From the NCBI RefSeq assembly GCF_964355755.1, contig NC_092678.1:1821922-1885921 (forward strand): a stretch of DNA of 64,000 bases. The letters run 5' to 3'. The translations under genes and the position numbers were made by a program. Source of the stretch: Antedon mediterranea. Taxonomy: Eukaryota; Echinodermata; Crinoidea; Comatulida; Antedonidae. Positions 6,095 to 59,760 of the stretch are shown one piece after another; within the stretch, counting starts at the first letter, position 1; every line of letters begins with the position of its first letter. The notes beneath the pieces were generated by a model. The model searched no databases and was not told where the DNA came from. It saw only the letters and a list, made by a program, of their open reading frames with translations.

Positions 6095-9000
6095 ATGGCA
6101 GCGGAAGAACACTGGTTCTGTGGCAATCGAACTACGTATGATTCTCTGGATGACTTCGTGTGGGATTTGGACCACACCGTTTATAACACATGTTTCAGCA
6201 ATTTATTATACTGTGTACCACATCTAGGTTTTACAGCCCTTGCGTCTCTGTTGCTACTTATTATGGGATGCCTTACGAGTCTAAAAGATATTAAGTGCAA
6301 ATATCTAATACAATATCCTGGTCATATGGTACGATGGGTCACAAACGCGGTGTTCTTTCTCGTTTTACTGAGCGCAGTCGCCGAAGGTATTCTGACCGAC
6401 ATGCAGGTGAATAAGGACACGATGACAATAGTTCAGCTGTACGTCCCGGCATTATGCGGATTTCTCGCCGGAATAATAACTATAGTCTACTTTCATATGA
6501 TGGAAGTGTGGAATAAACCGGTGATGTCGCTGCTGTTAGTGCTGTACTGGGCATGCTCATTATGCGCGGAGGTTGTACGCTTTTTGAATCTTCAGAACTT
6601 CAACGACACTGGATCATATATGAGATATTATCTGAATATTGTTTTGATGGCTATATATTCATTCTATGTATTACAAGAACTCAACGTTGTTAGAGTCAAG
6701 GTGAGTTTATGCCTTCCATACCTCAACGTTGTTAGAGTCAAGGTGAGTTTATGCCTTCCATACCTCAACGTTGTTAGAGTCAAGTTGAGTTTATGCCTTC
6801 CATACTAACGTTGTTAGAGTCAAGGTGAGTTTATGCCTTCCATACCTCAACGTTGTTAGAGTCAAGGCGAGTTTATGCCTTCCATACTAAGAAAATGATA
6901 TACTATAACTATTATAACTGCAAGTGAGGCTGATTAGGGCCTACATTAGGGCCTACATTAGGACCTACATTAGGGCCTACATTAGGGCCTACATTAGGAC
7001 CTACATTAGGACCTACATTAGGGCCTACATTAGGACCTACATTAGGGCCTACATTAGGGCCTACATTTTGCTTGGTGGCAATTTAATTTAGTGTTATTAA
7101 TTACGTCCGGACAAAACATTATAAAACTTTTGTCATCTATATATAAATTTACGTATGGGCAAAATTTGGTAAGTCGCACGTTTCCTTCTCGATGGTATAT
7201 AAAGTTGACTCGTACTTTCGGTACTGATTTTAACCACCTGATGTAACCCTGTTTACTAATTAAATTAAGTTAGATAATTAGTTGATGATTGACAATTGTA
7301 TCACAAAACTTTCTAAGGGCCCGTTTATGCATTAGGGTCATTCCATGCCAAATCAACAAATCAGTTGGCAGGTAATCTCTTAGATTTTGCTGATTTTTTT
7401 TCCTAAGGTACCTCTATCTATATAATGAACACATGCAAAAAATTAGCCCTCAATTCCAAGCGGTTTCGGAAATATGGCCGTTTTAAATTTGGTCGTCTCG
7501 CCCCATTTTTCGTTCCAAAATCGCGGAGTTTAATATTTTGTGTTTTTGGAGGCTTATATTTCCACAACGGACAAATATATTAAGCTGAAAATTACTACCC
7601 ATGGATAATTCCCACTCAATAAACAGAATCTCGTGAAAAAAAAATTTGATCTCTACTACTTTGGAAGATACAGCAGTCCGAAAACCCATTTTCGTTAAGC
7701 AAAATTAGCTTTTTTCGATTTTCGGCAGCCCTGTATACCCACAATAGCATTCATAGAGTGTTCAAACTTTTTAATTCTGTTATATAACTACATACATTTA
7801 CTCTAAAATGATAATATAATATTTTAAAGCTGAAATAACAAAATAACTAGTACCCAAAGTATGGTCCGGGGGAAAAAACCATGAAAATAGCCCATTTTCT
7901 CGTTGACCTTTGACCCCGTAGATGAATCTTGACAAACTTCAAAATTGCGTTAATTATTAAATACATATCAGATCTATATCTGATTCAAATTTGAAATTTG
8001 CAACTCCACTGCTTCATGGTTATCTAAATTTTATATACAGTGCTACTTTTTCATTTTTATATACTTTTTTTATACTATAGCCGTTTTTCGTACTTTTTGA
8101 GTTCTCTAAACTGATAATTAGAACTATTAACATTTTAAAATTAATCAATTTTAGCTAACTTTTTGTGCTGATTCCAAAAATGTAAACACATTTACCATAT
8201 CTTGTTTTATTCCTATTGATACTGTAGCCTAAAAATGATCGAAAATGAAATTTATAGGATTTCTTTGTACATATTGAAACACAACTTACATGTAAACTGG
8301 ATGGTATTACTTTGTATTTCAACCATGCACATGCCAATTTTGATATATATGTATGTATAATAATAGTGTATTGGTAACAGTGCTATAATACGTTTGTGGT
8401 CCGCTTCCAATAATTTGTACTGCCGACCTCCATGACCTTGTATCTCTGGAGTATTAATACCACAGATAATATCCTGAAACGGCACATAACATTGGTTAGC
8501 TGGATTATCTGGTGGCCAGTTAAGATTGCCTGTGCGTATTGATTTTTTCATGAACTTAACATGTACATCACTGTTTTCATCTGAACGTTCATCCATAGTT
8601 CCAATGTACCACTCCTTTCATACATACAAGCAATATATTTACCAGGTTGATAGTCATCATTCGGAATTGAAATGTTTTCTTCTTCACTCTACCTAACTAA
8701 ACACACAGTGCTGCTGTAAAAGTCATCTTCAGACAATCTGCGCATTTCAAGCTTTCCTGCAGATATACCGGAATAAAGCTATGATGGGAGCGAGTACCCA
8801 TAATAGTTTTTGATGATAAATAGCGTTCCTCTCTAGTTTGTAAGCATCTGTATTTTTCTGTACATCTTATCAAATACAAAGAAGAATTTGATGCCAGCAA
8901 TATTTTTAGAGACCCAGTCAAACATTTGAAGAGCCGTGAGGATTTGGTTTCCTTCTGTTGCCTGTAAACTTGTTCGTGCAACAAGCCTCTTCACTGTACC

Positions 9001-59760: not shown

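Follow-up and report, generated by a model that had tools for sequence, protein, structure and literature searches.

Three intact SUR-type genes in Antedon mediterranea belong to a five-gene ABCC8/9-clade family in an assembly where no Kir6 gene was found

Introduction

To our knowledge, the vertebrate SUR is known almost solely as a partner of Kir6, and the role of a SUR in an invertebrate is therefore unsettled. A sequence-only reading of a 64,000-nucleotide stretch of the crinoid Antedon mediterranea genome (hereafter the window) described a cluster of three intact SUR-type (ABCC8/9-like) genes and suggested that they encode either specialised KATP-like channels or SUR proteins acting without Kir6. 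We asked whether these genes are SURs, whether they are intact, and with what their products might pair. SUR-like genes are reportedly expanded in the sea urchin (Goldstone et al. 2006), and our literature search found little on invertebrate SUR expansion or on Kir6 evolution. As for individual cases, the fly Sur has been described as paired with KirI-III (PMC8733639), and SpABCC9, when expressed in sea-urchin embryos, is reported from intracellular vesicles (PMC6209159).

Results

Three intact genes lie side by side

Gene models were built with a splice-aware protein-to-DNA aligner purpose-written for this analysis (Table 1). The spliced frames of genes A, B and C contained no frameshifts and no internal stops. 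Their introns were GT-AG, with a few GC donors at weakly fixed linker borders, and the acceptor position of exon 2 in gene C was not settled in the spliced model. The side-by-side layout and the three starts (6095 on the plus strand, 42043 and 59760 on the minus strand) agreed exactly with those first described. A TMD0, two ABC_membrane and two ABC_tran domains were present in the cluster genes, and a motif table showed intact Walker, signature and H-loop motifs in both NBDs, here as in two further family members, D and E, described below. These checks bore out the complete TMD0-TMD1-NBD1-TMD2-NBD2 layout and intact Walker, signature and His motifs that had been claimed. The ATP sites are of a working type. 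Site 1 is degenerate in all five genes, with an Asp after Walker B in NBD1; site 2 is consensus, with a Glu in NBD2.

The claim of uninterrupted frames thus held, whereas the exact lengths given with it (1585, 1589 and 1578 codons) were not reproduced, since homology did not define the linker exons between TMD1 and NBD1 or between NBD1 and TMD2; our conservative models reach 1450 to 1464 codons. Open frames carrying an ERRKLK-type conserved stretch continue past the modelled linker-border exons, so the longer counts are plausible.

Table 1. Features of the SUR cluster (positions in the window; R1246 and R1300 in hamster SUR1 numbering)
Feature	Position	Strand	Details	Basis
SUR gene A	6095..27004	+	at least 28 coding exons; ATG 6095, stop TAA 27002-27004	splice-aware alignment, frameshift- and stop-free; SUR clade in tree
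SUR gene B	28583..42043	-	at least 30 coding exons; ATG 42043, last codons 28586, stop 28583-28585	splice-aware alignment, frameshift- and stop-free; SUR clade in tree
SUR gene C	45175..59760	-	about 30 coding exons; ATG 59760, stop TAA 45175-45177	splice-aware alignment, frameshift- and stop-free; SUR clade in tree
Gene A exon 1	6095..6700	+	whole TMD0; FCG...C N-terminus	splice-aware alignment
Gene B exon 1	41438..42043	-	TMD0	structural model with five TM helices; KATP SUR subunits lead the PDB fold ranking
Gene C exon 1	59155..59760	-	TMD0	TMD0 search
Gene A exon 8	16660..16700	+	41 nt	
Gene B exon 8	37940..37980	-	41 nt	
Gene C exon 8	54915..54955	-	41 nt	
Gene A fused exons	within 26150..26773	+	26150-26362 and 26577-26773	exon lengths
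Gene B exon, R1246 site	32069..32171	-	R1246 to Leu; TLWL for NRWL	
Gene B exon, R1300 site	31200..31311	-	R1300 to Gln; IVQRM for VVRNM	
Gene C exon, R1246 site	48916..49018	-	R1246 to Leu	
Gene C exon, R1300 site	48025..48136	-	R1300 to Gln	

The genes fall with SUR1 and SUR2

To place the genes, we built a tree of TMD2-NBD2 containing SUR1, SUR2, MRP1, MRP4, MRP5, CFTR and three other ABCC genes of the same genome (MRP1-, MRP5- and ABCC10-like). The SUR2 reference letters were taken from PDB alignments. For MRP, CFTR, Kir and most of SUR1, the reference letters were verified solely where such alignments print them. Genes A to E grouped with SUR1 and SUR2 at 100/100, apart from MRP1, MRP4, MRP5, CFTR and the MRPs of the same genome. 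Ranking against PDB sequences agreed: a joined draft of gene B reached 909 bits with SUR2B and SUR1, compared with 768 for MRP2, the C-terminal half of gene A scored 603 bits against SUR2 and at most 529 against YCF1 or MRPs, and the PDB sequence match covers TMD0 from SUR2 residue 16 onward. A structural model of the gene B TMD0 (five helices; pLDDT 64, moderate) had SUR subunits of KATP structures as its six top PDB folds, with MRP2 at rank 44 or lower. The N-terminal FC and the C6-C26 cysteine pair (SUR1 numbering) are retained in all five genes. The tree, the PDB ranking and TMD0 thus each support the original ABCC8/9-type assignment.

Could A, B and C nevertheless be MRP-type transporters (ABCC1/2/3) mistaken for SURs? 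A long ABCC architecture with a TMD0 is common to both groups, and MRP1-3 appear among the PDB matches with very low E-values. Against this, the genome has its own MRP1 orthologue (C1:22.41 Mb), which joins human MRP1 at 100/100, the cluster genes fall with the SURs and not with MRP1, and the top PDB matches in both sequence and TMD0 fold are SURs. Barring an error in the models, we therefore reject an MRP identity, which we judge exceedingly improbable. In the MRP1-like gene itself, one TMD2 exon is present in three versions arranged in tandem (C1:22.4065-22.4095 Mb), candidates for mutually exclusive exons. Elsewhere, two ABC_tran matches with nearly equal scores lie 23 kb apart, at C8:28.328 and 28.351 Mb, a possible recent tandem duplicate.

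Five old and constrained copies lie on one contig

Searching the 354-Mb assembly for TMD0 returned exactly five exons that encode it, all on the 26.05-Mb contig C9. The two outside the window belong to genes D (about 51.5 kb) and E (about 25.33 Mb), which lie towards the two ends of this contig and whose frames are likewise intact from start codon to stop codon. Querying the genome with an NBD2 consensus found no sixth SUR. The expansion is accordingly larger than first proposed, with five genes instead of three. Protein identity among them spans 41 to 67%: 66 to 67% between B and C, 62% between A and D, 51 to 52% for A-E and D-E, and 43 to 46% for B or C against A, D or E. Between genes, pS ranges from 0.76 to 0.82 and pN from 0.22 to 0.40; synonymous sites are saturated while pN stays low, which marks the copies as old and under constraint. 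As a single group against the vertebrate SURs, the five received support of just 61/65, so B/C or E may have branched off ahead of the vertebrate lineage.

Exon structure is shared across the family. Exon 1 of A, B and C is 606 nt long and holds the entire TMD0, and exon 8, at 41 nt, has equal length and phase in all five genes and fills in a segment that matches SUR1 residue for residue in alignment. Two exons of gene A are exact fusions of exon pairs found in B, C and E (109+104 and 134+63 nt; Table 1). Relative to these three genes, gene A has undergone two precise intron losses and gene D one.

Several other elements of the locus were recorded. A 42-bp tandem repeat in five copies (6680-6887) spans the first donor of gene A. 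The TMD0-L0 junction of this gene has two identical GTGAGT donors (6701 and 6743) set 14 in-frame codons apart, so alternative use would insert 14 residues. Its first intron contains a foldback/MITE-like 902-nt inverted repeat (7367-8268 and 9823-10724; 96% complementary). Minisatellite arrays of 18 to 33 bp, intronic and intergenic, give long spurious open frames (22745-23279, 23783-24364, 33061-33793, 43716-44026 and 46050-46556). Upstream of gene A, coding-looking stretches on the plus strand (700-3417) recall a CNBD2-like protein that binds cyclic nucleotides; translating them as a rough join gave no Pfam matches.

Such repeat arrays, together with the inverted repeat, are what could lead one to take the locus for an assembly artefact or a pseudogene cluster. 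All five frames are intact at 41 to 67% identity, synonymous sites are saturated while the protein is constrained, and the 41-nt exon 8 is conserved. On these properties we rejected pseudogenes and haplotype copies, and we consider an artefact very improbable.

The genome yields four Kir genes, none with the Kir6 pore signature

Searches with PF01007, PF17655 and a Kir6.2 query each returned the same four Kir genes, and none of the three recovered a Kir6 orthologue from the assembly. All four are intronless single-exon frames in one tandem cluster (C1:17.07-17.11 Mb). The pore signature of Kir6 is TIGFG; all four genes carry TIGYG, and each has another residue in place of G334, which belongs to the ATP site of Kir6.2. 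When two of the Kirs were run against the PDB, Kir2.2 was the best match (421 and 341 bits), with Kir6 behind (about 347 and 302). Forcing a clade with Kir6.1/6.2 was rejected for three of the four (AU p 0.011, 0.0001 and 0.0002); for the remaining gene, at C1:17.11 Mb, the Kir6 clade gave an AU p of 0.094, and the tree places it nearest Kir2.1. The nearest Kir is 50% identical to Kir6.2. No recognisable Kir6 orthologue was thus found, the gene at C1:17.11 Mb being less firmly excluded than the other three, and Kir6 is likely absent from the genome, as judged on one assembly with gaps. On the same contig, at C1:19.07-19.11 Mb, at least six STING-like genes stand in tandem. The assembly also gave a let-7 match, as expected of a bilaterian; searches returned no COX1 and no GFP-family match, and the contig start showed no telomere repeat.

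Kir6-contact residues are replaced in every SUR

SUR1 residues F41 and W51 touch Kir6.2, K205 in L0 helps hold ATP, and N131, F132, P133 and K134 coordinate a second PIP2 (PMC10954709). Aligned to SUR1, all five Antedon proteins have F41, W51, F132, K134 and K205 replaced (in gene A, K205 is a gap), and all five retain E128, N131 and the C6-C26 pair. The replaced residues define vertebrate KATP SURs only and the comparison was made with vertebrate SURs, so their absence may reflect a pre-vertebrate state, and such a state may be compatible with some Kir.

These observations bear on whether the five SURs simply join the Kir at C1:17.072 Mb or a neighbour in ordinary KATP-like channels, serving as tissue-specific isoforms that arose by duplication, comparable to the two SURs of vertebrates, and whose contact residues were lost by drift. 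The TMD0 is complete and keeps the residues just listed, four Kirs exist, one of them half identical to Kir6.2, and flies are described as managing likewise without Kir6. Weighing against ordinary KATP-like channels are the four pores and ATP sites lacking TIGFG and G334, the rejection of three of these Kirs as Kir6, the absence of K134, W51 and K205 from every SUR and, for B and C, the further loss of ligand-pocket arginines described next. We regard such channels as a serious possibility that nonetheless falls short of an even chance.

Genes B and C lack the ligand-pocket arginines

R1246 and R1300 bind the sulfonyl group, and among human ABCC proteins R1246 occurs in 11 of 12 and R1300 in 10 of 12 (PMC5655142). 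Both are kept in A, D and E, and are Leu and Gln, respectively, in B and C. From these alignments, B and C would constitute a SUR subgroup whose ligand pocket is altered or gone, and A, D and E may still bind an anionic ligand. The nearest likeness is ABCC10 (MRP7): the ABCC10-like gene of this genome also lacks both pocket arginines, and human ABCC10 carries Gln and Ser at these sites (PMC5655142). The resemblance ends there, as ABCC10 forms a separate branch and B and C sit inside the SUR clade.

The arginines are also relevant to the idea that these SURs are Kir-independent, for example transporters or regulators of some other membrane protein. Five SURs outnumber four Kirs, Kir6 was not found in the assembly, the anion arginines of MRP type persist in A, D and E, and sea-urchin embryos use SpABCC9 as a vesicular protein (PMC6209159). 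Yet the missing arginines argue against MRP-like anion transport by B and C, and the TMD0 is of SUR and not MRP type. A Kir-independent role for the family seems to us unlikely.

Discussion

The reading that we favor, with moderate confidence and from sequence comparison, is that the window contains three of five SURs that would be driven by nucleotides, would not form a vertebrate-type KATP channel and would act on a non-Kir6 partner. The five-gene ABCC8/9-clade family would have arisen in a bilaterian invertebrate through ancient duplications within a single chromosome. The NBDs would sense MgATP/MgADP, their motion would drive movement of TMD0/L0, and this movement would in turn regulate the partner. 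The partner of the cluster proteins is probably not Kir6; the four tandem Kir2-like channels are its most likely source, with the one at C1:17.072 Mb as best candidate. The description of fly Sur with KirI-III puts a Kir from this set forward as the first choice of partner; the vesicular SpABCC9 of sea-urchin embryos makes a Kir-free role the second. The original interpretation is thus partly supported, in that the failure of the searches to find a Kir6-type gene and the loss of Kir6.2-contact residues indirectly favor SURs acting without Kir6; action without any Kir, and the specialised channels that it also proposed, would both be hypothetical. A bolder version, in which the SURs are no longer KATP subunits and B and C represent a new arginine-less subtype sensing nucleotides for a different partner, is tentative and on balance rather doubtful.

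The Antedon genes resemble vertebrate SUR1 and SUR2 in their TMD0-L0-TMD1-NBD1-TMD2-NBD2 layout, in belonging to one clade at 38 to 42% identity, in the N-terminal FC(G) with a second Cys, and in LDDP of NBD1 and MDEATASID of NBD2. They differ in number (five genes against two), in their replaced Kir6.2/PIP2 contacts in an assembly where no Kir6 gene was found, and in the loss of R1246/R1300 from B and C; no RKR motif was seen in A to E at the SUR1 position. SUR-clade ABCC genes are likewise present in arthropods (Drosophila Sur CG5772, Daphnia Dappu-442500 and Tigriopus ABCC9), each with one reported SUR against five here, a comparison made by description only. SpABCC9/SpABCC9a of the sea urchin are SUR-named ABCCs of another invertebrate deuterostome, and differ, again by description only, in the vesicular location reported for SpABCC9. 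That invertebrates have SURs is therefore already known; the new points are that the set numbers five genes, that the search for Kir6 found none, and that B and C form a pair lacking the arginines.

Because this animal has a countable set of five constrained SURs and four non-Kir6 Kirs, every pairing (5 x 4) could be tested, and the loss of the arginine pair in one SUR branch is a natural experiment on the drug or substrate pocket.
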